From contig JAMYGW020000005.1 in NCBI GenBank assembly GCA_025617375.2, positions 62,001-126,000 of the forward strand: DNA of 64,000 bases. Direction: 5' to 3'. Source of the DNA: Acarospora socialis. Taxonomy: Eukaryota; Ascomycota; Lecanoromycetes; Acarosporales; Acarosporaceae. The translations under genes were made by a program, and so were the position numbers. The notes beneath the pieces are model-generated. The model saw nothing but the letters and a program-made list of their open reading frames with translations. It had not been told where the DNA came from and ran no database searches. Below, piece after piece: positions 5,640-64,000 of this stretch; position 1 is the stretch's first letter; every line of letters begins with the position of its first letter.

Positions 5640-7747
5640 ATGTTTCCAATGGAGCAATCGTACACGGGCCGCAGGACACTTCTGCCGAAGCCTCAACCTC
5701 GTGAGCTAGGGAGTCAGCCCCTAAATGCTCAGCCATTGGGCGCATCCCTTTCTACCTCCACAATCCCGGCTCAACCAGCATCTCGTCAACCCAAAAGCAA
5801 ACCCAAGACGGATCAAGAGTGGGAGCATCAAAGACCGAACATCGAACAACTCTATGTGACAGACAATCTCTCCTTACCGGAGGTGATGAGAGAAATGGAG
5901 GGGAAGTACCGCTTCAAAGCTTCGTACGTGGTACCGCATATCCTCAGGTTTCTCGTACTAGAGAAGGACTGTGACTGACACTAGCGTAGGAGAAAGCAAT
6001 ACAACAACAAGATCTCACAATGGCGGATCGGCAAAAACGTCAAGGACAACGAGATGCGAGCGATTGTTCGCAAGGAGAGACAGCGCAAAATGGGGATACC
6101 ACCAAAAGAGTCGTTCTTCCGTGTCCGCAATCGCCTGGTTGATTCCGACAAGATTGAGCGGTTCAAAAAAGACAAGGGGTTTGGTGAAGATGTAGTGATG
6201 GCCGACGCAGGTAACTCAATGCACATGCCTTGTGGACTAGTATATCTCACTGATGTCCGTTTCTATTTAGCAACTCCATCAGATATCAGTTGCAACACTC
6301 CTCCCCTTAGAGACTCCAAAATAACGGAACAAAGCCCGGGTTCAGCCTTCATGAATTACCCACGGAATCCTCTCAGCGCAGTGGAACCAAGGGTGTTGCC
6401 AAGTTCCTATCAACAATCTTGTAGCTCAGATTTACCGGCTGAGTCTAGCATTCTTGATTTGTGTCAACTCAACGTCAACCGTTTATCACCGTCCAACAGT
6501 CTCGATCCCAGCCATCGATTGCCATCCAGTAGACCTCGCGTCAGCCGTTGCAGCCCAGTGTACTGGAGAAGGAGTATCAGTGACACTCTTCAGTCGCCCC
6601 TCAATGGTCCTCGACTAGGCAATCACAGCCCGGTATATTGGCGAACGTCCCCCAGTCCGTTTCTAGATTCGGCTAAGTCTTCTCGCTCTCTGACCCCATA
6701 CCCCGTCAATCAGGCTTTATGTAGCTTTGCCAGCTCATCCAAATATCCGATCGCTTCTGGACCTGCTCTCTCCGAGTTTGAATGGTTTGACGCATTCGTA
6801 AACTACTCCGATCGTTCAAGGTCATCATCCAGGACAACTTCTGGAAAAAACATTGCTGATGTGGTACATAACTTGATACGACAGATTGATACATACGAGG
6901 GTCAGAAACAACACGAAGAGTTAGAGGCCAATTGGTCTCTTATCCAAATCCATCTGAACGTCGATAACTCCATATTTAATGATGATTGTGATGTTTGCAA
7001 GGCGTGGCTCGCTATCATTCAGCTGGCCCTTGTCATTCATGCACGAGACACCCATCCTGACTCTCTTTGCCACATCTTAGACCAGAACTTTCCAATCTCA
7101 AAATGTCTTCTAGCATTACTATCTGGAATTGAGGCAAGTGAAATAGAAGGCTTGGAACTCGGTCGAGCAGCGGTATCACTCCTATTCAGCAGTGGACGAC
7201 ATCAAGATGGCGAAAGCGTAGCTCGAGCTATTATTCAAGAAATGGAACGCCGAACCAGTCTGGACATCGACATCAAAGGGTCCGTGACTCTGGTACTTGC
7301 TGAAATCATCACAAAGTATGGGAGACATGAAAAGGCAGAACAGCTCGTTCAAGATGTCCTTAAAGGTGATTTCGGCGCCACACCATATCGAGAATGGCAG
7401 CAGGTGCAAGTGTTTCGAATCTAGAAGTGGAGATAATTCTGGGGGAACTAGAAGGCATCAGTTGGGCTGACGGGGCAGAGCTAACAGAAGAAGAATTGGA
7501 AGACATCGAAGCAATGTTAGGCGAAGAGAGAAGATCAAGGATGCCTATTTACTTCAAAGCTCTATCGGTTCTGTCAAAGCTGAATGTACATCATGTAGAG
7601 GAGGTAGTAATGGATGAGGAGGAGGCGATGGATGAAGATGTGACGGATGAAACGGAGGTATTGTTGGAGGAGGTGACGGATGAAGAGGGGGTGATGGATG
7701 AAGATGAGGTGATGGATGAAGGGGAGGTGACGGTTGAGACTTTGTAA
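5640..7747 (+). CDS. Clr5-domain protein with acidic C-terminal repeats
   Basis: Exons 5640..5923, 5990..6210, 6271..7365 and 7425..7747 give 640 residues with all junctions in phase. The ATG at 5640 has a second in-frame ATG at 5649. The Clr5 domain spans the first intron: DQEWEHQRPNIEQLYVTDN and LSLPEVMREMEGKYRFKAS, then RKQYNNKISQWRIGKNVK. This roughly 55-residue domain, named after fission yeast Clr5, heads many filamentous-fungal proteins. It is thought to bind DNA or chromatin, but the biochemical role is unsettled. The middle is Ser/Pro-rich, then helical (about 330-530) and reminiscent of TPR-like helices. The C-terminus is a strongly acidic Asp/Glu/Met/Val repeat encoded by GATGAG/GATGAA-type repeats. 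The 59-base last intron (7366..7424) joins two frames that otherwise stop. Confidence 0.8.
7610..7740 (+). repeat. GAT/GAG/GTG coding microsatellite-like tract
   Basis: An imperfect tandem of hexamer-like units (gatgag, gatgaa, gaggtg, gtgatg) encodes repeated MDE, VTDE and EVMDE motifs at the end of the Clr5 protein. It reads through in frame, so it is probably polymorphic in length. Confidence 0.7.
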
Positions 7748-9489: not shown

Positions 9490-12400
9490 TCAATCCTGCA
9501 TCAATTCTATGAACGTTTCCCAGTGATGACGTGCAACACCATGGACCCTCTCCGCCTCCTCAATCACATCCCTATCGATTCCGTCCAGGAAATCTTCTTG
9601 ACCCGTACTTTGATGAACGAGGCGCAAACGAACAAGGTTCCAGACAATCAGAAGAACAATGGACCTTTTAAAATCTGGCACATGCTCGTATACCCTATTA
9701 GGCGGCAAGATTGGGTGAAGCGCCTTACGTAGTATAGAGACTGCTTCATCACGGTTTCCGAGCCCTTCCGAACAGAGCGCCGATCTGCAGCGGGCGGTGG
9801 CAAGACGCTCGTCGGATTCTTCACACTCCTGTAGAAGGAGGTCTTGGGCACGGAATGCGTAGTCGAGAGCCGTTTGCCATTGCCGTAGCTCGCTGCAGGT
9901 TTCGGCCAGAAGAATCAAGGTGCGGTTTAACGGGGTATACTGGAGCCCGTACGTGCGTTCCTGACTGGCCAGCGCCTGCTTGTACCACTGTAACGCGACG
10001 TCGGATCGGCCGAGCTTGCGATAAAGGAAGCCGAGATGGGCGGCACAGACGGCGCCTTCGGTGGAGGTGTCGAGAGGCCCAAATTTGCAGCGGTAGAAGA
10101 GCAAGCGCTTGATGGCGACGTCGAGGGCGTCATAGAATGAGCCAATTTCGATATGGATGTTCACAAGGTAGCGTAGGGCGTCGAAGACGAGTTCGTGCTC
10201 TTGGCCAAGCAGGCCGCTATAGCCTTTCACAACTATCAAAAGCCACTTCTTCGCTTCGGCGAGGTCGCCCTCGCGGTGGGCGAGGTGGCCGAGCTTGAGG
10301 GCAGTTTCGAGGGCTCGACGCGCGGCCTGGCCGAATCGCTCGTAGTTGTGGATGGTGCGCGTGAAGGACGCGCCCCTCAGTTCGCGGTCGAAATCTTGTC
10401 GAGCCTCAAGGGCGATTTGGGCATCGGAAACGTGGTACTGCTGCCGCTGCCGGGCCCAGCAGCGCACGTAGCCCTTGAAAGCGGCGTCATACCAGTGTCG
10501 TGCGTCTTTCTCGATGCCGTCCGGGTTGCTCTGCCGCTGCATGTCGAGTGTTGAGGCGGCGATGTGCATCAGCTCCGGTCCTACAGTGGTGTCAAACATG
10601 AACTTCTCACAACGTTGGAGGACGGCAAACGCATGTGGCTGGTAGAGGGTGCATTTCTTGAAGACGGCGGAGCAGTGCGGGAGGCTGGGTACGGGGAAGG
10701 CGAGATATACCAGCGTCATGGCCAAGTGTGAAGTTGCTTGGTGTGTAGCTTCCGACTTGGATGAAAGCATCTCGATGTTAAGATCTCTGACAAGATCATG
10801 GATCCACACCGTTCGAGTGTTGTACACTCGTACAAGCCCGGCGTTCTGCAGGTCTAAGAGTGCGTGTTCAATGCGGTTGGTCTGCTCCAATACATTGCGC
10901 AGATGCCGCTGCTCGATGACGTGCCTCTGCAACGACAAATCGTATCCCGAGTCAGGCCGGCTATTCTCTTTGGGGAACCGCGGATACTGCAGCAAGGTGC
11001 GAACGTCGCGGAAACGCTTCCCAGGGTGACGGAGGGTATACCAGAAGAACTCCTTGTTATCGCCATTCACGAGCCGGAGCGTCCCATTCGCTCTGAGCTG
11101 CTCCTCCTTTGCTGACCGGATCGCCCCACGGTCATAGGCTGCGCCTCGGTCGAAATGTTGGGAGAGCCTGGAGCTGCCTTCCTCAAGCAACTCGATTGAT
11201 ATAGCAGAGGTATCAAGGAATATCATGACCTTGAACAAGGCAGCTGCCTCGGGATTCCTTGCTGTGAGCGACTCGGTAGCCAGTGTGAAGAGGGCTCCGG
11301 TAGATGAGTGAATCTCGTGGAGAGAAGACTGGTACCCTTGGTTCATTATCTCTTGTCTGCGGCTCCGCAGGTGCTGCACCATCGTCCCCAAGCTGTCACC
11401 GCGAAGACGCGCAAGAGTTACAGTCTGTTCGATCGCGATGGGTAAGCCATCGACTAGCTGATGAAGTTCTCGTGCCGAGTTTGCTGTATCCGTGTCCAAT
11501 GTGTCTTGCTGTAGTAGTTTTCCTACTAACTGCACAGCATGGTCGGGGCCTAGCGGCGTTACTTCGAAATCAGCTTCAGCGTCTGCGAGAGATCGTGCCG
11601 TGTCGCAGTCTCGGGTTGTAAAGAGGATATCACCCGTTCCTAGGACCGGGAGGACCTGGCGCAATGCTCTAAGATCACAGACATTGTCGAAGATCAACAA
11701 CCAGTGAGAGGAATTTGCGAGCCAGGTCTTTATAGCTTCGATGATAAAGCGCTCCTCTGCATCGCGATTTGTTGGAACCTGCTCTCGGTCGATCAGGGAG
11801 AGTATCTCCGCTATGGCACGCAAATCAATCAAGATCTGCGCTTTTGAGTCACCTCGGATGTAGAACACGTTTCTGTACTCTGATAGAGTATCTTGAGCGT
11901 ATCGGAAAGCGACCTGACTTTTGCCGACGCCAGGAAGACCCCATAGCGCTGCCCTTTTAGGGCGACTACGGCTGTCAGAGTCCACTAGGCAGCCATGCAA
12001 GCTAGAGAGTAAGATTTTCCTGCCTGTAAAGTGGCGGCTGAGAAGGTCGGGAACACTGAACGTCTTGGCTGATGGCGGGAGTGGTGACGGACCCGCAGGG
12101 TTGCCGCCATTGCCGGAGAGGAGTCGGTGTTGGCTACGGGCATTCGATTTCATGTGCTCTGCATTCGCGGCTTTATCGACTTCATCGGCATACCGCGTAA
12201 GCTTCTGAAGTAAAGACTCGAATGGACGCTTGAGGGAAGACCAAACAGCGGCGCTTACGGTCTCTGTCGTCCAGAATATAAGTCTCTGAGCTATTCCTTT
12301 CTTTTGGCGAACTCACTGGCCTTGCCCCGATTATAAGCTCTTGCAGCCTCAAGGCAGAAGATGATGATCTCTTTGTAGAAGAGAACCAATCTATTGCCGA

Positions 12401-46389: not shown

Positions 46390-48244
46390 GCGGCAACTGT
46401 GTTGAGAGAGGGTACCGATATAGATGACTGAAATGCAGGACAGAATAGGTCGCAGGAGATGATTAGATGTAATGTCGTAATTGTGGGGTCTCAACACGTT
46501 GAAGTAAAGCGGGGGGTGGTGGAGTAAGAATTATCCTGCACGTAAAGGTGTTGCTTCGCGTCACTGACTGTGCACATTCAAATAGCAGAGGGGCTGAGGT
46601 AATGAGTGAAGGAGGGAGGGAAGAGAATAAAGCTGAAAGGATTGACGTGAAGAGAAGATTGGTTTTGCAGTTGCGAAAGTGGAGCGAATTAACACGTCGA
46701 TATGGAAACGGTTGTGAGCAATCTGGAGGGAGGTTTTAGGGGCCGAGCATATGTGTAAGGTAAGGTCAGGTAAGGTATCTCACTTGTGCAAGCCTGCCTA
46801 AGCCGCGGGAGATAAGCCTTAGCCGAAAACCTTGTCTCAGCCCCCAGATCAATCAAATGCCAACTACTAGGTAAGCCACAATCATTTGCCACCTTATCTA
46901 GTCTAGTAACATTATCGTTGGCCCGATTTTCCTCCATGTGCCTTACAACGTAGCTACCTAGGCAGACTGACAACCTGACATCGTGTATACCCGATCGCTA
47001 AGGACGTTACGATAATCAAAAGGAAGTACATGCATTGGCAGCAACCTGAGGAGGATAGTTCCCTTTCTGATAGATGTAGAAAAGTAAACGAACAAGTGCT
47101 GACTATGAGGTAAGCTCTGGAGCGATATCTTATATACTTTAAGAGTGATCCGTCTGATGTTTAGAGCATGCGTATGATAGTCTGTAGAATCAAGCTGTCT
47201 CCAGTACAGGGGATGGATCGGATCCACACGGCACCTTCGATAGAATTGTCTGCACAGTAAGAGTGTTTGTGCTACGATGCTCTTTATTCTGTAATGTCGT
47301 GGCCGGGAAATCCTCCTCCGGTTTAGGCTGCCGCCGTTTCCGGTATGACGCCGTGCTTACCTAACCCGCCGCTTTTGATCTCGCTCTATAAGAACCCCCA
47401 CATCCCCTCCTCCTCGATCTGTCCATCTTTCCTTCCTTCCCTACTCCCATGTACAGTACTGCGCGTCACGCGACCTCTGTGCCGCCGGCCCCCTCCTTTC
47501 CGAGGCTGCCTCGCTCCTTCGCTGCTTCGCCCTCTTCGCTCCTCCGATCGCCGATCGCCGATCGCCTTGCGCCTTTCACTGCAGCTTGCACTCTATATCC
47601 CCTTCGCCATCGTGGAGCCCGAAAGGCGGCCGTTGGATGTTGCGGTGTGCAAGCGCCCCCGTCGCGAACCCCGGCCGACCAGATGCACCAACACATCTTC
47701 CGTCCCTGTCTCACCTGCTCCACCTGCTCCACAACATGCTGCGGTTGTCGTTTGTCTTTCACGCCCTCCTCCGAGGCAGCCCTGGATCTGAGCATGGGCT
47801 CTGATCTCAGGTGCAATTCCCTGATTTGGGTGCCGCCCCTCTCCGAAGTCTCCTGCCGATCTTGCTCTCCTCCTTCCAGCTCGGCATGCGTCACCACCTG
47901 ACGACTCAATTGCTTGATCGCTCAACCACTCAATGGCTGTGTTGCCAGGCCAGGGCAGGGATCTGACTTGGGGAGAAATGTTACAACACTGCACCTCACC
48001 TGTCAGCAGGGCCCTGGGGATCATTGTGATGTGACTGGACATCACTAACACTGCAGTGAGATGTGGCCCATTGCACATGCATTAGAATGAAGACTGTGCT
48101 GAATACCAATATCTTTTCTCCATGAATAGATATTTCAGTTCAGAAGAAAAAGACTGATTTAGTTCATTTAATGCACAGCAATGAATCCTGCATGAACTGC
48201 TGTCAGAGTGCTTCTCAACATGAACATTTGACATGATGCAGTCA
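46390..48244. other. Gene-free transition to the AT-rich block
   Basis: The first part is the F-box promoter side. A C/T-rich stretch from about 47,345 to 47,900 has open frames on several frames and a TATAAG box at about 47,387, so it may hold a promoter and truncated host gene, but no family is recognisable. From about 47,920 CG dinucleotides vanish while CC and GG persist, then CC/GG thin out from about 48,070. GC falls from about 55-60% to about 35%. Confidence 0.5.
47546..47566. repeat. Three-copy 7-base tandem repeat (gatcgcc)
   Basis: The unit gatcgcc occurs about three times in succession in the CT-rich stretch before the AT-rich block. Significance unknown. Confidence 0.6.
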
Positions 48245-48408
48245 TGTTACGGGGCATGGCCACTCCACATGAGGTCATGCTGACTAAGCATGCTTACTAA
48301 GCATTCCCGCCACATATATAGTGGTCACACCCCTTTACCCACTTAGACCCTCAATTATTACTTATATATTATATCTTGAATCACATAGCTTAGATTTACA
48401 CCCTAACA
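48245..48408. repeat. Left LTR (164 bases) of the miniature element, little mutated
   Basis: It begins TGTTACGGGG and ends CACCCTAACA. It still contains many CC, GG and two CG dinucleotides, unlike all sequence to its right. Confidence 0.9.
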
Positions 48409-49016
48409 ATTGATAGCACCAACTGCACAAATTCTTATGCTTGATTCTTTAATTAGATTGATCAAGTTTCTACATCTAGTTTTCATTTACTAGTAATTTC
48501 TCATACAAAAGATGACACTCAATATTCATCAAATCACTCAAGCAATAAATCTCATCACATGCAAAGAAGTGAAGATTATTACTAAGAAAGTCATCAAAGA
48601 AATAATCATGTAAGTTCTTCATCAATTAGATCTTATTTCTATTGAGATCTCTATCAAGACTTCTATCAAGTTCTTCACTGAGATCTCTATCAAGATCATT
48701 AATGAGTTTGTTGCTGAAATCTCTGTCATCAAATTCTTCAATGAAATCTTCAACAAGATTCTCATCAAGATTCTCATCAAGATCTTTATCAAATCTGTTG
48801 CTCAAAATCTAGCAACAATGTCATGCTTCATTATGACAACAACATCATGCTCAGACATGATCACAAAGAGTTTATTACAGACTAAACATCTAGTAAAAAC
48901 AACTTCTTTCTTCTGTCTGAGATTACACACTTATGCAGCTATCTTTGTGTTTGATTCAGATGACATAAACATCTTGATTTGAAATCAACATGTGGTGATA
49001 TCTTGTTTCTTTTGAT

Positions 49017-49427
49017 GTCAAAAACACATACAAATTGATGTCTTTTTGACACAGCTTGTTACTAGTCTTTATTTATTTGTTTCATTGATTTCAAACTCAT
49101 TTTCACACTCATTTTTGCACTCATTCCTACAGCTACAACATGTTTTGATTTATGTCAAAAATGCATACAAATTGACATCTTTTTGACATGACTTGTTACT
49201 AGTCTTTATTCATTTGTTTTGTCAATTTCAAACTCAATTTCACACTCATTTTCACACTCATTCCTACAGCTACAACACATTTCAATTTATGTCAAAAATG
49301 CATACAACTCAATGTCTTTTTGACACAGCTAATTACCAGTCTTTACTCTTTTGTTTCAACAATTTTGCACTCAATTTACACTTGTTTTTACAACTATGAC
49401 ATGTGTCAATTTACATTAAATTCACAT
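49017..49427. repeat. Three tandem copies of a 137-base unit inside the miniature element
   Basis: Units start at about 49,017, 49,154 and 49,291. Each has the order gtcaaaaa...cataca, tctttttgaca, agtctttat, cactcatt and a final acaacat/acat box. The third copy is the most divergent. Confidence 0.8.
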
Positions 49428-49604
49428 TCAAATTCAGTCTTTTCAAGCACACCACATTTTCACTCACATTCACAACAACAACAAGATCATGAAAATGAAT
49501 TATAATGAGTTATAGAACAGATGAGATGTTAAATGAATATAAAGCATAGTCATAGATAGTTGTCACAGTGAGAGCACTGTCTTTCAGTTTTGAAGAAAAA
49601 AACT

Positions 49605-49768
49605 TGTTATGAGACATGATCACTTCACATGAGGTCATGCTGACTAAGCATGCTTATTAAGCATTCTCACTGCATATATAGTGATCACATCTCTTTACTC
49701 ACTTAGACTCTCAATTATTACTTATATATTATATCTTGAATCACATAGCTTAAATTTACACTCTAACA
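49605..49768. repeat. Right LTR (164 bases) of the miniature element, strongly mutated
   Basis: Same length and order as the left LTR. Compared with it I count about 18 differences, 17 of them C-to-T or G-to-A in this copy. Confidence 0.9.
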
Positions 49769-50646
49769 AGTCAGACAGAAACAGTCTTGATGATGATGAG
49801 ACATTTTATTAGCTGTATATGTTGATGATGAACTGAATCTCTCACTAACATTTTGACAATGAATCAACTCACTCTAGACAGCTGTCACAATCATTGCACT
49901 AAACAGCAAGTATAATGAGTTTAAGATTCTGACAGACTGAAATGTGAAACTGTGCAGTCAAGAATTCAGATTATGCTGAAGAGTCTGCAAGAGTTGTGTT
50001 CTGAATAGATAAAGTCATACTTGTGCATCTCTGAATCTCTATTCTCAGTGTTTTCTATCATTATCTTCTTTCAAAGTAGCTCTCAAGTTACTTGTGTCTT
50101 TTCATCTCAACCTCACTCTACAATAAATTCTATTTGCTTCTATCAATTTTTCTAAACAATGATTGTCTTCAGCAATAAGACAACTTATTTTTCATTTATT
50201 CACAGTTAGAGTAACCACCAAGTCAAGTTAACTCTGATCAACTCAAATCAAGCTTTCAGATCAGATCAAGTCAGATTAAGTTTTTAAGTCTGAAGATTCA
50301 GATCAGATTTGATTTGAAAGTCTGATTCAGCTCAGACATTTAATTCAGATTTTAATGATTATGATTATGATTAAGTAGACTCTTGAATTAGAATTTAAGA
50401 GTTTGAGTTGAAAGAGTGTGATACATAAATATTATAAGTGAGCATTATATATTGAACAAAGATATTGCTTTCATTCTAAGATTGTTATCTATCACATCAA
50501 GAAGACAGTATTTCTGAAGTAACTCTAATCACTTTTACTTCAATTTATATCTTTTGATACAATATTTCAGTTATGCATGTATCTTTTAATAAGAATCATA
50601 TTCTTTTGCTGAATAATAATTCACTTTGTGTAAATCACAGCAAGAT
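49769..50646. other. AT-rich non-coding sequence between two LTR elements
   Basis: No open frame of note. It contains a stretch of repeated TCAGATC/AAGTCAGA-type words at about 50,230-50,340. It may be part of an older element into which the Ty3 element inserted, but no LTR pair or domain could be identified. Confidence 0.4.
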
Positions 50647-51007
50647 TATAACATTCTAATCTGAGCTTTCTTGAATATGTAAAGCTAAGAGTTTGTGCTT
50701 GTTGATATAACAGCTGGTCTGAAATGGTTCTGAACTTTAACTCTTAGATGGTTACTTAAGTTGAACACAATCATTTTCATAAGAAAAACAACTCTACTAT
50801 ATAGAATATGCTCAATGTTTCTGTGTTGAGCACTCTTGATGTCTTGATGTTTTAATGTTGAGAAGTTGAGCTTCTGACTTGTCTACTCACCATTAAGTTA
50901 TTGTGCTGTTACATGACTACTGTCTAGCAGTTTCTTCTGTATGTGCTTCAGATGAACTTTTGATCATAGACTTGCAAGTTTTTTCTTCTCTGAAAATGAT
51001 CATAACA
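50647..51007 (-). repeat. Left (3') LTR of the Ty3/gypsy element, 361 bases
   Basis: Matches 56,503..56,863 along its whole length with the same end boxes (start ...aacattctaatct, end ...atcataaca). Differences are mostly C/T or G/A. Confidence 0.9.
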
Positions 51008-51081
51008 TCATTCTTTCTCTTCAGGTGCTAGTTCTCTAGACTTTATTTAAGTGAAAGTATATAACAATCTCATCATCAGCA

Positions 51082-51475
51082 ATGATGCTTTCTAAAAATT
51101 TCAATTGTCTAAGAATTGCAAAGAAAATTCAACTCAGTGATAGTCTTGTCACATTTCTCTGTGAATTCTGTACTGCTTATGGTCTTGATTGCTTTGTCAT
51201 GACTGATGAAAGATCAAAATATGATAAGTATACTTGTCACAGTCATCTGTATGTTGCAGTTTCATGAAAGTCTCTCAACAGAACTCATCTTTCTCTTCAA
51301 AAGAAAATAAGTGATGCAAATGTGATTCTTGATGTTTTTGTCATCAAGATGATGCATTTTCAAAAGACTTTGAATCAAATGAATCATCATACTGCACAGA
51401 AAACTGATTGTCTTGCTGCTGAACTTAATAGTGATAATGATGAAACTGAGAATGAAGATTCTCAAACAATGTCAT
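51082..51475 (+). other. Antisense accessory open region inside the Ty3/gypsy element
   Basis: Between the chromodomain and the 3' LTR an open region runs on the + strand, opposite to gag-pol. It contains a cysteine-spaced segment after ARKI-like basic helix sequence and a helical acidic end. It resembles the small Cys-cluster proteins that accompany some fungal Ty3/gypsy elements as antisense ORFs; this comparison is from memory and needs a search. It is a decayed fossil. Confidence 0.5.
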
Positions 51476-54400
51476 AACTTGTTAACTTGATGTTGTCATT
51501 CTTCTGAACTAATATCAATTTTTTTTTTTAAAATGTTGAAGTATTCTCACACAGTTCTTGAGATTCTCTCTTGACTTTCAAGTGTTTTCTGAGATATTGT
51601 AATTCTTTCATTTGACAAGATAGTGAGTTTTCTCACTAATCATTCTCTTTTCTAGAATGTTCTCAACTTCATATTTTTCTTTGAGTTTGACAGATGTTTT
51701 GATAGTTTGAAGTGATATGAACTGATTGCAGTGCTGTAACATGAATGCATGAAATACTGAGTGTATTCTCATTTTCTTGAGTAAGTTCAACTCATAGCTT
51801 AATTTCTTGATGTTTCATATGATCTTAAATGATTCAATGCTCTTATTTTCTAGCTTTCTGCTTTCTTTCTTTGTTTATATGTTGTTTGTTCTTAGATATA
51901 TCTTCTTTTCTTCTTCAAATGATTTTGTCTCTGTTGTTTATCTCATCTGCTGTTTGATTCATTTTGTCAGATCTCAGTGCAGTTTTTTCATCTGTGTGAT
52001 ATTCAAAATTGCTTTTTGACTCTGTGATTCATGTTCTTTGAGATCTCATCATATCTCTGAGTTGTAATCATAGTTCACATAGAAAGATGTTTCTTTCATG
52101 ATCTTGTTTCTTGTGTTGTTGTACACAAACTGTGCTGTTGACAACAGTCATACTCAGTCATCTTAACTCTGATTGACATAGTGTCTCAAGTACATTTCTA
52201 TTGTTTAATTCATTCATTTACTCTGTTCATTTGTCTGTGAGTGATATGTTATCAACATCTTGTGTTTTATCTCAAGTTCTGCTGTGAGTGTTTTTCAAAA
52301 CTTGCTTGTAAACAGCTTGTCTCTGTTGATGATAAATTTCTTTAATAGTTTATGATTGTTAATTAATTCTCTTAGTATCATGTACATCAATACTGATGCT
52401 GTTGCAGTTTCTCTGAATGAAATGAACATCATGTACTTGATCAATCTGTTCACTATAATCAATATGTTATTAAATCTTATTTCTCATGCTGAATCTTTTG
52501 ACAGTGATAGCTTCATAATGAAGTTCATAGTAACTGACTTTCATGATGCACTTGATGCATCTAGCTGTGTTATTTCATCATATTGCTTATCTCAGTTGAT
52601 TTTGTTTCTTCAGCATGAATCACACACAGCAATCATTTTGGTGACTCAATTTCTAAAATTGTTAATGTTGTGTCTTCTTTGCACTAGATCTTTGATGCAT
52701 TTAACTTCTAGATATTCTTCAATTTTATTGTAGTGACACATTCTTATGAGTTCTTCATCTGTCAAGAGAGCTTGCTTCATCTTATACATTGCTGCTAAGT
52801 TCTTCATGAAAATTTCATTGTTGTCTTTGCTCAGAATTTCAACATGTACTGTTTGTACATCTTCATAATTAAGTCATCTACTTAAGACATCTGCTTCATC
52901 ATTCTCATTATTCTTCTTGTAATGAATCTGAAATTCATAGTCTGCTAACTGCTCTGTTCAATGAATCTGTTGTTGATTGAGTTGTTTTATCATTATAAAG
53001 TTTCTCAGATTCTTGTGATCTATGTAGATCTGAATTGACTTGTTTGTTTCTGCAAAATAAGATTTTCAATCTTGCAGTGCTTTCACTATTGCAAGAAGTT
53101 TCTTATCATGAATCTCATATCTTTTCTTGAGTTCTGATAACTTTTCAAATTAATATGCTATGAGTTTCTGCTGCTCATTCTTGATCTGATATAAATATGT
53201 GTTTACTGTGAAATCTGAAGTGTCAGTTTTCAGTGTCTTCTCACATGCTGAATTGAATATTCTCAGATGTGTTGTTCTGCTAAGACTTCTCTTTAATATG
53301 TGAAATGCATTTTTCTGTTCTTCATTTCAATGTTATTCTTCACTCTTGTGTATCAAATGCATTAATGATTCTGCAATTCTTGCATAGTTTGATATGAATT
53401 TTCAATAATAGTTCATCAATTCTAGAAAGACTTGTACTTTCTTGATTCTTTTCAATGTTAATCAGTCTCTGACTGCTTCTGTCTTCTTTGAATTCTTTTT
53501 GATTTGTTTAGATCAAATTACATAGTCTAGAAACTCAACTTTCTTGATCTCAAATCTGCTTTTTGACTTTTTTATATACAGAACTCTCTCATTAAGTCTT
53601 GCTAGTATCTTCTGCACATGTTTGCAGTACTTTTCAAGGTTTTCTGAATATATCAGAATATCATTGAGATATGTGATTACAAAATCATTGAGATATTCTC
53701 TCAACATGTCATTGATCAATCTCTGAAAGATGACTGAAGCATTTTTCAGTTCAAATGACATAATGATGTACTCATAATATTTATATCTTGTTTAAAATGC
53801 TGTTTTTCATTCTTCATCTTCTTTCATTCTGACTTGATAGTAGACATTCTTAAGATCTAAGCTCATGAATTACTTAATCTTTTCTAACTGATTCTGCAAC
53901 TCTTCTATCAATGATAGAGAATAATTATCTTGATGAGTTATCTTGTTGAGTTGTCTGTAATTGACACATAGTCATTTCTTGTCATTCTTTTTTGATATGA
54001 ACAGAATCAAATATTCTGTTGATGACTTCAATGATTTTATGAATTTCTTTTTAGATTCTTGTCAAGATAAGTTCTAACTTTCTTGAGTTGGTTCTCACTC
54101 ATTGAGTATAATGACATTCACTCAGATTGCTTCTCATTCAATAGTGATATTTTGTGATTTCATGACTTATACTCTGATAAGCTCATCTCTGATTGTTTGA
54201 GAATCTTATATGCATCTTTGACTGTGTATATCTCTTTTGTAATTCAGTCAATCTTTGAATTTCTTCTGTGCAATCAAGACATCTCTAGTACTGCATTGTA
54301 TCTGATTGATTTCATAATATCAAACATTATTTCTTGTGAATTTTCAAGAATTGAGACTTTCACACAGATTTTCTCATTGATTCTTTCAATGACTTCATTT

Positions 54401-56502
54401 GTCATTCATATGTTGAATGAACAGTACACTCACTGTGTCTCTAATTTCAACATGTTGACTACTCATTAACTCATAATGTTACTGTCTGCTTTGAAATTCA
54501 TCAATGTGTTGATCTGATGTCTGTCAATCATGATTTTGATTCATATTTGATGATTATTATCTCATTTTTGAGATGTCACTAGCTTCTTATTCTCTAGTCT
54601 TGTTGAGAAAGCTCTTTATTTTTTGACTTGTTTGATTCTTCAGCTCATCTTCAAAGTTCTTGAAATCATTTGAGTTTTCTTTTGATCATAAGATTTGTAT
54701 ACTTTAGACTATATTGCTCAATGCATCTTTCTGAGTGTAGTCAAGATTCATACTGATTGTACTTTATCTGCAACTGACTCTCAATGACTTTTACTCTTTG
54801 CAGAAATTCAGATGATATATATTCTTCACTGAAGATTTATCTGTCTTCATTCTGCATGATATATTCTTTGAGTAAGTGTATTTCAATCTTGTGACTCTTC
54901 ATTTTTCATACAAGAAATTCTGATAGTACTGCATCATTGCTGTTGAGACATTCATCTTTAACAGCTATCATCAGCTCTTCTAGCTGATTGTATGTCTTTC
55001 ATTCTTTTGCATTTTTGTGTTGTGCTTTTCATTTTCAAGCTTGTATCTCTTGTTCAAGCTTGTGCTTCTCAAATTGAAGCTTTTCTTCTCTCAACATTTA
55101 ATGTTGATTCTTGAGATGCTGATATGCTGTCTTCAGTCTCATGTTGACTTTTCATTTGTTGATCTCTTTCTGATTCACATTCAAATTCAGTGCTTGTCAG
55201 ATGTTATCACTGTAGTTTTTTTCTATCTGAATTTCTTGAGCATCAGTCTCTTCAATCTTGACATCAAGAACTTTTTTCTTGGTATCTTCTCTTGTAAGAG
55301 TAGCTAATTCTTTCTTGTAGTTTGATTGACTTGTTGCATCATATTGATTCTTTGCATTCTTGCACAATTTCTGAGAATATCATTTGACTCTGTCTTTTGC
55401 ATTCATGTGTACTCTGCACATGTTATTGTAACAGGCTGTTCAGCTGAGAGTGTTGTGCACTATGTGTGTATTCTTCTTGACTGTCACTGCAACATTTTTT
55501 CTTTTCATTCAAGATCTGTTGCATTCTCAGACAAGGTGTTCAGGTTTTTCACAGTTATAATATGTTCACATCTTGTTTCATGATGTCATCTAAGACTTAG
55601 TGAATCACTCTGACTGATATTCATACTCTGTTCATCTAGTCTTTCATGACTTCTGATAGCACTTCTCAATTATATTGAGATTCATAGAGTTTGTTTCTCT
55701 ATATCTTATCAATAAAACATATCACTTTGTTCATGATCAGAAGCTTTCTTCTTGATCTTCTATCATAAATGACATTCAATATTCTTTTTGTTTCATCTGT
55801 TGTTCTCACTGATAACTATTGATATTAATACTTAGATCAATCATTCTTTGAAGATTGTTTGGTCATTTTGCTTGAGCTATTTTGTCTTTGATGAACTTTC
55901 TCAACTCACAATAGTACTGGTAGATGAGTGCTTCATCATTTTATTTGGTAAGTGCTGCTAATTGTTAAAACTCTATGATGTATACTGCTGCTGATTCACT
56001 CTGTCACAAGATGTAAACTTGTTTCTCTGCTGCTCTTTCTTCATTAATTACTTTAAAGACTTTCTTGAGTTCTTTCTTGAACTTGCTGAAGTCATTGAAC
56101 ATGAACTTCATGTCAGTGTTGTGTTCATTGTAATTCTTTTCTAGAAATTCATGTAGCTTGAAGTTCACTCAATCAAAGACTGCATTCACTAGATAGATTG
56201 TTGCAAACAATGTCTTTTCTTGATCAGTTTGAAACTTCAGTTAATTGAATTTAATATACAGATTGAGCTTAGTCACAAAGACTCACAGCTTTTCTCATTC
56301 TTCATCAAAGATATTGAATACCTGAATCTTTGATGCATTCACAAGTAGTTATATTATCTGAGCTGACATCACTGATTGTGTTGTCATTCTATTTGAAGTA
56401 GATGATAAAGATGAGTTCACTTAAGCTTGTTTCAAAAACAAGATTGAGACATTCTTTTGTGTGTCAGACATCATACTTGTTATATCATAAGAGTGTTCAA
56501 AG

Positions 56503-56863
56503 TGTAACATTCTAATCTAAGCTTTCTCAAGTATGTAGAGCTAAGAGTTTGTACTTGTTAATATAATAACTGGTCTGAAATGATTCTGAACTCTAACTCT
56601 TAGATGATTACTTAAGTTGAACACAATCATTTTCATAAGAAAAATGATTCTACTATATAGAACATGCTTAATGTTTCTGTGTTGAGCACTCTTGATGTTT
56701 TGATGTCTCAATATCAAGAGATTGAGCTTCTGACTCATCTACTTGTCATTAAGTCATCACACTGTTACATAACTACTGTTTAGCAGTCTCTTCTGTACAT
56801 GCTCTGAGTGAACTTTTGATTATAGACTTGTGAGTTTCTTTCTCTCTGAAAATAATCATAACA
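56503..56863 (-). repeat. Right (5') LTR of the Ty3/gypsy element, 361 bases
   Basis: Begins TGTAACATTC and ends ATCATAACA on the + strand, with the AAGAT target duplication directly after it. Confidence 0.9.
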
Positions 56864-57125
56864 AAGATTAACATCTGAACAAGTTAGTTTATAGTTTCTT
56901 AACAGTGTGTTCAACATACTTTCAAAAAAAAACAACAACATATATTTTCACAGCTTCTTGCAGATTCTCTATGACTGAGACTTGAAATCAAAAGTTCTTG
57001 TTGTGATATCAAATCTTTATTAAATAGTTCTGAGTGATTTCTCAACACAGTCACTGAAAGAGAAGTTTTTTCATTAAGAAATCAGTTAATCTCTGATAGC
57101 AACATATTTCACAAAGAACAACAGC
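56864..57125. other. AT-rich sequence between the Ty3 element and the minisatellite
   Basis: Right flank of the Ty3 insertion. A short motif ctctgatagcaac (about 57,091-57,103) loosely resembles the reverse complement of a Met-tRNA primer-binding site, so an older LTR element could lie here, but this is weak. Confidence 0.35.
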
Positions 57126-57660
57126 TATAAAGTAGAATTGAGTGTTAAAATTGAGTAATAAAATTAAGCAATATCATAAACACTGTCATCAAGCATCAGA
57201 ACAAAGCATTAAGACAGAGTATCAAAATTGAGTATTGTTACAAAGCATCATCACAAAGCACTGTCACAAAGCATCAAAATGAAGCATCAAAACTGAGCAT
57301 CAAAACTGAGCATCAAAACTGAGCAATAAAATTGAGCAATAAAATTGATTGATATCATGAGCACTGTCATCAAGCATCAAAATAAAGCATCAAGACAGAG
57401 CATCAAAACTGAGCATCATTATAAAGCACTGAAACAAAGCATCAAAACTAAACATCAAAACTGAGCAATAAAACAAAGTATTGAAACTGAGCATCAAAAT
57501 AAAGCACTGAAACAAAGCATCAAAACTGAGCATCAAAATAAAGCATCAAAATAAAGCATCAAAATAAAGCATTAAAATGAGACATTAAAACAAGACATCA
57601 AACTGAGACATCAAAACAAGACATCAAAACTGAGCAATAAAATTGAACAATAAAATTAAA
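57126..57660. repeat. 13-base minisatellite array A (AGCATCAAAACTG-like unit)
   Basis: About 40 imperfect units of 13 bases, such as agcatcaaaactg, agcaataaaattg, aagcactgaaaca and aagcatcaaaata. Changes among units are mostly C/T and G/A. Confidence 0.85.
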
Positions 57661-58254
57661 CTTACTGTCTGACTTTCAGCAGTGAGCTGATCTAGATTTT
57701 GCAGTAACTGCTTGAGTTTCTTCATCTTTATTCATATTTGCAGCAATATTCATCTCAATCTTTACTCATATTTCATCAGTATTTTCTTTCATGTTTTCTT
57801 CACTCTTTTCTTTTTTCTTTTCTTCATCACAGATTTTTTTATTCTCATGCATCTTTTCAGCAGTCAATGTCTTTTCTCTGCTCAGTATCATCTTCATAAC
57901 ATCATATTTTGTTGATAATATCTTGCTATGTATCATGATGTAAAATAACAATTTAATAAAGTTTTAAGATTAAGTTAACAGAAGCATTATAAGAGATTAA
58001 TATAAAGATATCTTTGAGTGACTGTGAGTTTTAATATATGTGAAAGACTGAGTTGATGAGCAAATTGTAATTTAAAGTTTATTGTTGAGAGATGTTACTG
58101 AGATGTTAGAGAGATTGAGATGTTATGCTAGTAAATATCACATTTACTTATGATATGTGCATCAATGTTATGATGCTAGTAAACATCATATTTACTCATG
58201 ATATGTGCATCAATATTATGAGTAAATACATTAACACATTTATCTTTAACACTC
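57661..58254. other. Centre between the inverted minisatellite arrays
   Basis: On the minus strand about 57,766-57,951 an open stretch encodes a highly charged Lys/Glu-rich segment (EEKKKEKSEENMKENTDE). No family is recognised. At about 58,131-58,230 a roughly 51-base unit (gatgctagtaaa...gatatgtgcatcaat) is repeated twice. Confidence 0.4.
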
Positions 58255-58830
58255 AGTTCTTATCTTCACTTTTACTGCTTAGTCTCTATATTTAATTTCT
58301 ATACTCAGTCTCTACACTCAGTCTCTATACTCAGTTTTTACACTCAGTTTCTACACTTAGTCTCTATATTCAGTAAGTTTATTATTTTGCTTTAATACTT
58401 CATTCAGATGCTTCATTTTGATGCTTAGTCTTGATGCTTTGATTTGATGCTCAATTTATTGCTTAATTCTATCACTCAGTTTTGATGTTTTGTTCTAATA
58501 CTCAATTTTGATGCTTTATTCTGATGCTTTGTTTCAGTGCTCAATATATAGTTCATTTCTATCACTTAGTTTTGATGTTTCATCTCAGTGCTTTGTTTTG
58601 ATGTTTTGTTCTGATGCTCAATTTTGATGCTTTGTCTTAATGCTTTGTCTTGATGCTTCATGATGATGCTCAATTTTGATGCTTTGTCTTAATGCTTTGT
58701 GACAATGCTCAATTATGATGCTTTATCTTGATGCTTCATGACAGTGCTCAATTTTGATGTTTAATTTTGATGCTTTGATTCAGTGCTTTGTTTCAGTGCT
58801 CATTCTATCACTCAATAATAACACTTATTT
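58255..58830. repeat. 13-base minisatellite array B, inverted relative to array A
   Basis: Units such as tttgatgctcaat, tttgatgctttgt and tctctatactcag with a 13-base period. They are the reverse complement of array A units, so the two arrays face each other across about 600 bases. Confidence 0.85.
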
Positions 58831-58868
58831 TAGTGTTCAAAGCTAACTTTATATTCTAAACTCTCACA

Positions 58869-60030
58869 ATGACAGAATTTTTAAACACTAAGCTTTCACT
58901 TCTCTCTGTCAAACAACTTGTCTTTATTTTGTCAATGAGTTCAGAAAATATCTTAAATGTAAGTTCTGATCATTGTGATCATTCTTATAAGTTATTATAT
59001 GATTTAAAGAAGATGTTTAACAAATACTTAAATAACTTAAAGACTGCACAGACACAGAAGAAATGTCAGAAATTTATGAAGAATAAAGATATTAAATGAA
59101 TTAAACATATAAAGATGACAGATTACAGAGCTGTGAAACAGAAGAGAGACATTATAAAAAAGTTGAAAAAATATAAAACTGCAGATTCTGCTGTACAGAA
59201 AATCATGAAAGAGAAGATGAAGAAAGAAGTTTTGAAGAAACAATACAATTGTGAAATATCTGATAGATTTCAAGAATTATAACACTTTATTATAATGCTT
59301 TTAACTATCTGCAGCTGTCTACTATGAAGATGAGCTTAAAACTCATTTGATGAAGTAGAAGAATTAAGCTTAAATTGATGAGAAGACTGAGAAGAAAAGA
59401 TTGTTTACTAATGTTTTAACTTTAAAAGAGAAGTGTAAGTCTAAGAAATTACAGCAAGAGATATACTCTATATTAAAGTTTTATAGTTTCTCTGACTTTC
59501 TTCAGTTTATTAACAAAGATGTTATCATCAATGAAAAGCACAGCAATATCAATCAGCAAATTGACAAATGTCTTACTGTTGTAATGAAACATAAAAAAAA
59601 AATCATTAATCTCACAAAAAAACAGAAGCTACATAATGCTGAAAATTCTGATTCTGCAAAGACAATGCATTTTTTCTGTAGTGATGTTCTTAATTCTGAG
59701 CATATTGCTGATTATGATCATCTGTGAGTATTATATTACTCAGTTATAACACTTTGTACTTTTAACAGTGACTAAATAAATTCAAGAGTCTGCATTTGAT
59801 TAAGAAGAAGAGAAAGAAAAAAGTGTTATTGAGAATGTTGATAAAATTTATGTAATGAAGTCTGAAGATGAGAAGTTCTTAAATGATGATTCAATTAATA
59901 AATTTATTATTGATGCAGCAATTGCTGATGTAAAGAATGATGAGAAGAAGAAAGATGAAGCTGAAAATGATGAAAATAATGAGAGTATCATAAATAAGAA
60001 CAGTGATGAGAAGAGAAGTAAATAATAAAG
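58869..60030 (+). pseudogene. Unidentified Lys-rich coding fossil
   Basis: Consecutive open stretches on the + strand (about 58,869-59,097, 59,115-59,280, 59,401-59,727 and 59,830-60,020) share a Lys/Glu/Asn-rich composition, with an intron-like gtgagt...ttaacag segment at about 59,728-59,770. I recognise no domain; a transposon-encoded protein is likely from the setting. It is decayed like the rest of the block. Confidence 0.4.
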
Positions 60031-61540
60031 TAATACACAGTTTTGTGATGACTAGAGCTGTAAGATAGTAAAAGAATAATTAGAGATATTTGTCAAATTG
60101 TTTATTTTTATATTCTTGATGATCAATTATCTGATTATGAATATGAATTATTAATAATAAGTTATTTCTCTTTAAAATATTGTGTCTGATATTATCACAT
60201 GACATAGTATGAAGTTGTAGTATAGAATTTTACATTAAATTATTTATTTCAATAATTAATTATTGTTAACTCAATAACATGTTATGCAGAGTAGCTTTCT
60301 CATTGATTATATATGTATAAATCATAAGAATTTTGTCTTTTACTTGTGTAAAATTTGTGATCACATGATCACATTCTTATGAGAAAAAACTTACAAAGTT
60401 TCACAACACTCTTCATATCTTACTATTGTTATACTACAACAAAACATCATTTACTCAATCAGCTTACTCTGAGAAATCATCATTATATCTTTATACAGTT
60501 CTTTTTTCAGTCAGCTGACAAGTGACTTAGAAAGTTCTTTTATAAGTGCTTTCACTGATAAAATTTGATCATCTTAACAGATATAATCACTCTCTTCAAC
60601 TCTAACAAATGTGTTCAACTCAGAGTATGTTCTTTGAATTTCTGCAATGAAGCAAGAATTTTAAAAGTGATGAGAGACAACTATATGAAGTTAAGACACA
60701 GTTGCAAAAGTCAAAAAATATACTTCAATACTGTAAAACAGTTTAAGTCACTCAGCAGAAGTCTGAAAGTCTTTTATTAAAGTAGTCAGCAAATGTGATG
60801 AAAGACTCAGAATGATGTGTGTTAAGTGTTATAATATCATGAATCATTCAGCATCAAATGATGATGAAACAATAATCATAAAATGTCATCTGAAAAGCAA
60901 CAGTTGTCAGAATACAAGAAGATCATCAGCAAGACAGATTTCAATCTTTGCAGCACTGAATATCACTGTATATTATGTTTTTCAGTTATAATGCTTTATG
61001 TTGAGAAGTGTGATGTTCTAACTGCTTTTATAGTCTTAGTTGAAACTAACATCAAAAGTTACTCATTACTCATATAGTCTGCATGACAGAGTATATGAAT
61101 AAATAATCTTTACAACTCATGTTGATCACAGTTAAGTTGACAGTGTATATTTCATTAAATAGACAGTTAGTCAGCAGTATAGCATGAGTATTTTTTTATC
61201 TTTCAATAAATTCAATAAATTATGAGCCTGAGTTAGCAAGAAGCTTTCAGAGAAAATACATACTGTTTTAATATCTTGACAGCTTGATACAGAAGTTCAA
61301 AGATTGAGCAAAACAAACATTATCAATCATCAATATAAAGTTCTAAAATTGAGCAAAACAACACTTTCAGCAGCTTGATACAGAGCTCTAAGATTGAGCA
61401 AAATGAGACTTATTGACAACTTAATATGATACTCAACAATTAAGCAAATAAACACTCACACTTCTTCTTTCTCTTATTTACATTATCTTCTTCTGTACAT
61501 CTTAATACTTCATTTTATTCATTTTTTATACTATGTGTCA
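60031..61540. other. AT-rich sequence including the probable 5' LTR of a copia element
   Basis: Two short open stretches (about 60,565-60,780 and 60,883-61,077) match no family. At about 61,270-61,460 a 50-60 base unit (cagcttgatacagag...attgagcaaaa) recurs three or four times. The LTR of the downstream copia element should end near 61,540 but its start could not be placed. Confidence 0.4.
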
Positions 61541-64000
61541 ACTGTTATCAAAAGCTACATCATGAATTTTGATGACTCTTTCACAAAATAATGACTCATC
61601 TCAATTCTCAGTTGCAAGAACTGCAATCAATGATTTACTTTCATGAGAAAATGACTGATAGATGAAAATCTATAATATATTGTTAAGATCTCAGTGATCA
61701 ATACTTCTGTCAATGACTTCTTCTTTTTATTCAGCAATTTTGATTTTGAAAATCAGAAGTCTGACACAAAAACTCTGTACTAACTCATCATTTATATTAG
61801 TGCAGATGATCAGAAGTACATTGCAGACAAAATTAATGTAAAGAATGTTTGAAATATCTTGAAGTTCAAATACAAAAAGAAGCTGCAGATCACTGAAAAA
61901 CAATATTTAATGAAGTTTATTGAATACAGAACATCAACAAATATATTTATTAATGAAGTATAAACACATCTCAGCAAGCTGAACAGAAAAATTGCTGTAA
62001 CTCAGTCTGATATGACTGATCTATTTAAGTCTGAGCAACAATTTCAAACATTTCTTCAAGCATTATCTGAAAACTACACAGTGATCTGTGATGCAATCAA
62101 TACTCAAAACATCTTAAACATTAAGAAAAGTCTGCAGAAGCTTCAAGAGAAAAAAATACAATTAAAGACTGTTGAGACTGTTTTGTAAGCAGATTGATGC
62201 AAAGAGAAAGACTCAACACATTCATATTAACATGATGTGAAATATCATTATTGAAGATTGTCAAGCTTCAACAATGATTGTTCTTTTCAGTATAAATCAA
62301 TCAAATATTTTCTCTGCTGTAATTCTCATTATATTTAAGACTGTGAATATCTTTCTGCTGCTTGCAAGAACATTAAGTTAAGAAAGTTATCTGTTTTAAT
62401 TGCAGTTAAGTCAGTTAAAAAGTCAGACAAATTGTCTGCAAATAACTCACATCATAAAAATAAAATAAAGTTCAAGTACAGAAACAGAAAGTATAGAGTT
62501 TTTGATGCTGAAACTGAGAAAAATAATGACTCATTTTCATCTGAGTCTGATGCAGAAAAAGATGATGAGATTGTCACTCTGTTTAAGAAAACTGTCAGTA
62601 AGATATTTAGTTTTAAATGAGTTGCAGATTCTGAATATTTCACATACATAACTGATCAACATTAACTTTTCAGTGATTCTTTAATATGTATATGATGTTA
62701 AAGAATTAAAGTTGAGAGAGAATACTTATACTCTCACTACTGTGAAGTAACTGTAATGTAAGATGAATTCAGAAACTTTATAAATCTAAGTTCAACACTT
62801 TATGTGTCTGAACTAGAAGTTAATCTCTTATTGAGAAAGCAAATGTGCAAAATGAAATTGCAGAAAAGCTTTGATCAGCACAGTCTTTATATGTGAAATA
62901 AACATAACAATATCATGATAGAAGTGTCTGAATGAGACAGTGTTTATATAGTCAAACACATTGTAAAAGAACTGAATGAGTTCATTCTGTTATCTGTCAT
63001 ACACATGTTATTCAATTCAGAGATAACTCTTTCAGTCACAGTACTGAATATGAACTTTCAGATGCAGATTTATTCATTAAGCTCTGTTGACACTTTATTT
63101 TCTGTTGACACTTCATTTTTAAGTGAGAAGATTAAGATCTACAAACTGTGACATTAATGATTTGTTCATCTTGATTCTACAAAACTTCATGATCTTTACA
63201 AAGTTATAATTTTTAAGAAGTCAATTCTCATTACTGAAGACAAGAAGAATATCTGTGAAGTTTGTGTTCTCATTAAGTTTGTCAATCAGTGAAAACACAA
63301 TATGAACAAGAAAAAGATCAACATTCTTGTTCTAATTTTCATTGATATATATAATTTCTTATTTCTGTCATTTATCAAACATCAGTACTTTCTGAAGATT
63401 GTAAACAATTATTCTTGAAAGACATAAACAATATTGCTGAAGTAACACAATAATGTCTTACAGAAACTACAAAAGTAATGATTAAAGATTGAGCTTCAAA
63501 TTGAAGTGAAAATACTTGCTGTATAAAGTGACAATGTTACAGAGTTAAAATCAATTCTGAATAACTGATGCAGATTTTTTGACATTATACTGCAGTATAC
63601 TATGTTCTACATGTTTATTCAGAATAATGTTGTTAAAAGAGTCATTTATATCACTGAGAATTCAGTGCATGTCATGATCAAGAAGACAAAATTTTCAATA
63701 AAATTCTGAATAAAAACAGCACAAATAAATGTTTATTTTTGCAACTGAACAGTAACTGATCTCTTGATCAATAATAAACAAATAATTTTGAAGAAAATCT
63801 TCACTGATGTGCAGCTGTTCATTAATTACATTTGTGTCTGAAATTGCAAGTGCTACTTCTATGTTGATTTCAAATTGTTGTTAAAGAACAGACAGAACAA
63901 GTTTATGAATTGAGAATGAGTGAAAGTTTTCATAAATTATGCAAATAAAATCACAAAACAGTATCTGCTTTGAGTTTCAGATCTTAAGTAAATCATTAAG
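61541..64000 (+). mobile_element. Ty1/copia retrotransposon, cut by the window end (fossil)
   Basis: A primer-binding-site-like box (tgttatcaaaag, 61,543..61,554) resembles the Met-tRNA site TGGTATCAGAGC typical of copia elements. It is followed by a copia gag region (UBN2-like, about 61,850-62,190; TQSDMTDLFKSEQQFQTFLQ is readable), a zinc-knuckle region about 62,290-62,360, protease about 62,620-62,800, the pre-integrase domain about 62,900-63,200 and integrase from about 63,300 to the end. Reverse transcriptase and the 3' LTR lie beyond the window. It is broken by many mutations. Confidence 0.8.

Follow-up and report, generated by a model that had tools for sequence, protein, structure and literature searches.

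Probable RIP-like mutation of C before C or G in repeats of Acarospora socialis leaves the outer LTR of one element almost whole

Our results point to a RIP-like defence in the genome of Acarospora socialis that probably takes as its main target a C followed by C or G, reading that neighbour from the current sequence, leaves most CpA steps alone and evades the standard RIP indices, with a border that falls within one element and leaves its outer LTR almost whole. This LTR element, 1,524 bp long, occupies positions 48245-49768 of the window (the whole 64,000-bp stretch analysed, C5:62001-126000 in a genome of 31.1 Mb and 38 contigs) and lies between a GC-rich part and an AT-rich block. Positions 1-47000 are ordinary GC-rich DNA (GC 0.51), with CC, GG and CG at 0.93-0.94 of expectation; a 940-aa frame on the minus strand at 9490-12312 looks NB-ARC/TPR-like by eye. 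The features at the junction are:

47921-48244 (no strand): single-copy left flank without CpG; its final GG is at 48065, after which come five CC
48240-48244 (+): left target site duplication, AGTCA (5 bp), the same 5-bp sequence as at the right side of the element
48245-48408 (+): left LTR (164 bp), nearly intact, with 14 CC, 6 GG and 2 CG and its own mutation at 48312
48409-49604 (+): element interior, with 5 CC, 1 GG and 0 CG remaining in 1,196 bp
49004-49414 (+): tandem array of three 137-bp units within the interior
49605-49768 (+): right LTR (164 bp), saturated, with 0 CC, 0 CG and 1 GG
49769-49773 (+): right target site duplication, AGTCA
49769-64000 (no strand): AT-rich block of dispersed repeats, GC 0.297, with 0 CG, 6 CC and 16 GG in 14,232 bp

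The LTR ends (TGTTA...TAACA) and the 5-bp target site duplication are those of an LTR retrotransposon, which has TG...CA ends and such a duplication. Equal 5-bp flanks were found at other copies of the LTR family too. The longest stop-to-stop frames of the interior of this mutated copy encode only 122 and 100 aa, so we take the element to be non-autonomous; it is probably a small, non-autonomous LTR retrotransposon.

The original prediction held that the two 164-base LTRs stem from one insertion event, which the AGTCA on both sides supports, and that they differ at about 18 sites. The gap-free alignment of the pair shows exactly 18 differences, every one a transition. When polarised on other copies of the family, 17 of these differences were derived in the right LTR, where C had become T or G had become A, as predicted; 12 of the 17 lay at CpC, 3 at CpG and 2 at CpT, and the predicted figure of about 15 at CpC or CpG also held. 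The remaining difference, at 48312, is a CpG lost in the left LTR (CG to CA), while the right LTR lost the same CpG through the opposite strand. The left LTR is thus nearly intact, with one mutation of its own. One left-LTR change against 15-17 on the right indicates an unequal chance of mutation (two-sided binomial p 0.0005 to 0.0001), and there was no gradient of change inside the left LTR.

We aligned 48 LTR copies, taken from 50 places in the fetched loci after two were dropped because locus L014 lies inside L046. The alignment comprises BLAST pieces of at least 130 bases, and at least one further match (on C4) lies outside the set. Ten of the 48 copies, the window's left LTR included, were intact (at least 18 CpC/GpG/CpG steps kept), 5 were partial and 33 were mutated. 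The prediction would fall if the CC and CG sites of the left LTR were themselves derived; instead, with nine other copies keeping at least 18 steps, the comparison supported these sites as the ancestral state. For eight copies besides the right LTR, transitions were the sole differences from the left LTR.

Using the intact group minus the window's left LTR as reference, we found that the 33 mutated LTRs had changed at 456/625 CpC (0.73) and 100/196 CpG (0.51) sites, compared with 76/622 CpA (0.12) and 59/526 CpT (0.11) sites. The odds ratio for CpC and CpG versus CpA and CpT was 15.7; because the copies are related, these figures are rates and not counts of independent events. Transitions at A/T sites numbered 13 in 2867. 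The five partial LTRs (both of L022, one of L032, and L025 and L026) had changed at 34/95 CpC, 13/30 CpG, 2/95 CpA and 2/80 CpT sites. In a second comparison, of 11 copies with the longer, partly mutated L022, changes were found at 564/753 CpC, 57/106 CpG, 568/2409 CpA and 337/1744 CpT sites. CpA and CpT are not immune, as their rates of about 0.12 in the LTRs and 0.19-0.24 in the L022 comparison are well above those of transversions. Mutation thus falls chiefly on a C whose 3′ neighbour is C or G, and much less on CpA and CpT. L022 is a partly mutated element within saturated DNA; we had considered it as a mutated element within intact DNA and rejected this, since its surroundings are saturated. 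A longer, partly mutated member of the family lies inside saturated DNA at positions 3515-5662 of L055 (C12:1290115-1292262), and its LTRs keep 7 and 12 CpC/GpG/CpG steps.

Runs of C showed how the neighbour is read. The original prediction had cited CCC becoming CTC and CCCC becoming TCTC, as expected if a C is hit only while C or G follows it. In the LTR pair, CCC became CTC three times before A or T and once before G, and CCCC became TCTC once. Outcomes in the mutated copies upheld the logic: among 66 for CCC before A or T, 45 were CTC, 10 TTC and 11 other sequences. In the L022 comparison, the first C had changed in 71/179 CCC, versus 210/239 CCA and 278/324 CCT. A C often remains unchanged once its 3′ neighbour is T, which suggests that the rule is applied to the sequence as it currently stands and in more than one step; a C would then be mostly safe after its neighbour has become T, with the neighbour read afresh in each round. 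CCCC before T was CCTC in four of the five partial LTRs and CCCC in one. This would fit mutation that starts with the most 3′ of the eligible Cs, a pattern that is suggestive only, as two of these five LTRs come from one element. APOBEC3G-type deamination targets the 3′ C of CC. This kind of change (CC to CT) does not fit the data: at the three isolated CC pairs, TC was found in 32, 28 and 22 of the 33 mutated copies and CT in 0, 0 and 1.

The same depletion extends through AT-rich DNA elsewhere in the genome. Six stretches totalling 60,032 bp were pooled from three regions (the part of C5 that runs from the window to 156,000, C5:3001-10000 and C2:601-9400), and in them CG occurs 0 times, CC 49 times and GG 65 times. 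At 54000-57000, the window's block is a dispersed repeat with at least 67 genome matches including itself (40 scored of 684 candidate places), and among the matches listed, those over 900 bases have 79-86% identity. For another repeat, comparison of the window with its C2 copies gave 153 adjacent TG|CA double mismatches, where 26 are expected if neighbours are independent; this excess is the mark of CpG loss on either strand. The repeats sampled are saturated.

Despite this saturation, the pool scores as RIP-negative. Its TpA/ApT index was 0.65 and its (CpA+TpG)/(ApC+GpT) index 1.64, and its composite index of -0.98 was below the -0.47 of the GC side. Under the cut-offs of one source (product index above 1.15, substrate index at most 0.75; PMC7882544) and of another (0.89 and 1.03; PMC3828140), the product index was not raised and the substrate index not lowered. 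The window's block has CpA in excess (O/E 1.54) and little TpA (O/E 0.60); because CpA is kept and TpA is not raised, the standard indices come out negative.

Several other features were noted. Near the start of its contig, a saturated block contains a short CC- and GG-bearing stretch (L049, 2578-2937; C5:2578-2937), perhaps a recent insertion. The 3′ end of an SSU rRNA gene in the rDNA (L053, about 1520-1740) appears by eye to carry an insert of about 220 bp, which may be an intron. At the left edge of the C12 block (L055, 1956-2099; C12:1288556-1288699), only CC survives (14 to 0), and at its right edge (7041-7211; C12:1293641-1293811), GG mostly survives (15 to 3). Both outer edges look as if change extends further out on one strand; the C2 edge differs. 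A general strand polarity at block edges was dropped, since 13 edges across the fetched loci were of mixed sign, with the C2 edge opposite.

The change from intact to mutated sequence is bracketed by two positions: a CC is retained at 48419, as it is in 3 of 11 relatives, and mutation is first suggested at 48457, by comparison with a single relative, L022. The single sharp limit at 48,410-48,430 that had been proposed was not borne out, as the bracket is 48419-48457 and the flank beyond the left LTR is altered too. This flank is single-copy (a genome search returned one match, itself). No CpG occurs between 47919 and 48250, the last six positions being inside the LTR. These 331 bp between successive CpGs compare with at most 127 bp elsewhere in the GC-rich part of the window, and none of 4663 overlapping 270-bp windows of positions 1-46900 lacked CpG. 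At 48101-48244 there are 3 CpC/GpG/CpG steps, with as few in 0 of 80 overlapping GC-matched windows. Since the flank is CpG-free and GG-poor, the left LTR resembles a spared island, with altered flank on one side and saturated interior on the other, and the process would formerly have extended leftwards beyond it. Within the element, the border may therefore be an additional one, unless the left LTR was shielded or regained its sequence; it does not simply mark where a mutated domain ends. The missing CpG may have another cause, since intact LTRs L034 and L040 have flanks that are CpG-poor (0 or 1 CpG per 300 bp on at least one side) yet rich in CC and GG.

Other copies separate the roles of time and place. 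L024 is an intact LTR in depleted DNA (0 CpC/GpG/CpG steps in 200 bp to the left and 100 bp to the right), so some sparing is due to time rather than place. L025 and L026 are half-mutated LTRs in saturated DNA, and all three are probably young insertions, either unprocessed or partly processed. Five single LTRs (L035, L038, L039, L042 and L044) are intact and have CpG within 300 bp on both sides. As these are intact although the family has at least about 40 genome matches, an LTR alone seems not to trigger the process.

A model that accommodates these observations is that a small LTR element inserted at the edge of a pre-existing AT-rich repeat block, whose flank, in the simplest order of events, would have been altered earlier by spread from the older block. 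A RIP-like process acting on repeated DNA, mainly at C before C or G, would then have mutated the element's interior and right LTR from C to T on both strands, through a C5-methyltransferase pathway (RID-like, DIM-2 and/or Dnmt5). The left LTR, as the outermost 164 bp adjoining single-copy DNA, may have escaped because the process runs out close to where a long repeat stops and an LTR by itself may be too short to be recognised. Distance alone fails to explain the sparing unless the flank had changed before insertion. On balance, we find this account, with insertion at the block edge, a RIP-like CpC/CpG mutator and sparing by position, somewhat probable as a whole. For the sparing itself, the likeliest reason is an effect of the left LTR's position on the outer side of the repeat; as 0 of 11 other two-LTR elements in our set showed a like asymmetry, this effect is seen in one case.

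The main rival is that both LTRs were mutated and that the left one was restored in meiosis, by crossover or conversion with an unmutated element on the homologue. The abrupt change within 48419-48457 and the lack of a gradient inside the LTR fit such an exchange, as do the sublineage states that the left and right LTRs share in an allele-like manner (alignment columns 64, 81, 121 and 171), but an unmutated allele must have existed at the locus after its neighbours were saturated, and we regard this course of events as a real but minority possibility. The same four states bear on a further rival, in which another intact copy converted the left LTR ectopically. Intact copies exist, and the border is close to the end of the LTR, beyond which a single LTR offers no homology; this origin is weakened because the most similar intact copy, L024, differs at all four columns, and no intact copy among the 48 aligned has the states shared by left and right. 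Between the left LTR and each of the other eight intact copies there are gaps and 9-12 transversions. Although a donor could have been missed, since 40 of the 59 candidates were scored in the search of the genome and not all matches were fetched, we consider ectopic conversion quite improbable.

The two remaining alternatives concern how the mutations arose and whether the junction is real. CpG and CpC methylated in heterochromatin by DIM-2 or Dnmt5 could decay by spontaneous deamination, with no dedicated mutator. The genome has both DIM-2 and a Dnmt5 relative, and 5 of the 48 LTR copies are partly mutated, as passive decay would allow; against it, the targets are nearly saturated although the sublineage shows neither transversions nor gaps, which demands a very large rate ratio, and CpC changes at least as readily as CpG. 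This makes passive decay unlikely. LTRs are also classic points of misassembly, and the locus is judged from the assembly alone, so that the two ends could in principle be a chimera. As both ends are tied to one insertion by the sublineage states that they share and by the equal 5-bp duplications flanking them, for which the chance is about 1 in 1024, we think this very improbable. Our preferred reading is still a RIP-like process with sparing of the left LTR by position.

The genome contains candidates for the agent, as a profile search with PF00145 gave four matches in three places. L011 matched PDB 7r76 (E 2.5e-67), an entry listed as Rad8 that we take to be Cryptococcus Dnmt5, and its product would be a Dnmt5 relative. 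At L010, the PF00145 match is split over two frames, which cover profile positions 2-160 and 253-324 with a gap between, and L010 matched PDB entries weakly; its motifs presumably resemble those of RID, and by this resemblance and by exclusion of DIM-2 and Dnmt5 it appears to be RID-like. L009 matched PDB 9bap (E 1.3e-191), described as apo-DIM2 (PMC11315935), and is, by this match, DIM-2. The RID-like protein, DIM-2 and/or the Dnmt5 relative could thus act here.

We compared the process with known systems, using the excerpts available of the papers cited. As in RIP in Neurospora crassa and Leptosphaeria maculans, C changes to T on both strands of repeats, the genome encodes DIM-2 and an apparently RID-like protein, AT-rich blocks stand beside normal genes, and some unique flanking DNA is changed. 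Repeats are mutated and unique DNA is largely spared, as in RIP, with the unique left flank by the block as an exception. Unlike canonical RIP, the process shows no CpA preference (CpA 76/622 versus CpC 456/625), and the kingdom-wide 2025 screen of Badet and Croll describes this preference as shared by RIP-like defences (PMC12543289). Because we found neither the CpA preference nor positive standard indices, we place the process with the RIP kind by its working but not with canonical RIP. It also differs from MIP in Ascobolus, which methylates without mutation, as the window's element is mutated.

CpG to TpG change resembles the CpG-biased hypermutation of Microbotryum, Tuber and Rhizoctonia solani AG8. 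In the basidiomycete AG8, C/T changes occur every 214 bp at CpC and every 370 bp at CpG, uncorrected for pair frequency, and affect genes and repeats alike; the paper stresses CpG (PMC4014442). Within the excerpts, AG8 is the nearest precedent for CpC; unlike AG8, the change described here is at least as strong per site at CpC as at CpG, is near-saturated and affects the repeats of an ascomycete. Zymoseptoria tritici, whose Dim2-dependent mitotic mutator changes C to T in repeats, is likewise a fungus with DIM-2 and Dnmt5. Its methylation prefers CG, then CA, then CC, and its new Dim2-dependent mutations fall at CpA, not CpG (PMC8016269), whereas CpC and CpG are the main target here and CpA a minor one. 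RIPCAL lists CpC as one of four possible targets, and the same source reports that CpC and CpG are depleted too in Stagonospora, where CpA to TpA dominates, and that MATE of A. nidulans is changed at CpG and CpA (PMC2621366). Monilinia repeats are changed at CpA, plus double changes of CpC to TpT and CpG to TpA (PMC8959702), and in the rust Austropuccinia, CpG is depleted and CpC over-represented (PMC12774611). Amselem et al. give CpA, CpT and CpG signatures, and the excerpt names none for CpC (PMC4352252). In the literature searched, as far as its excerpts go, we found no CpC and CpG signature that largely spares CpA; an earlier mention is possible.

If our reading is correct, the CpA rule for detecting RIP is not universal, and fungi with a near-saturating mutator of repeats can score as RIP-negative. 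The element has a built-in control, as its LTRs are of the same sequence and the same age and lie 1,360 bp apart, and can probe the spatial limit of the process. Spared and half-mutated LTR copies give the order of mutation without an outgroup species. Which enzyme among RID, DIM-2 and Dnmt5 sets the target would then become testable.
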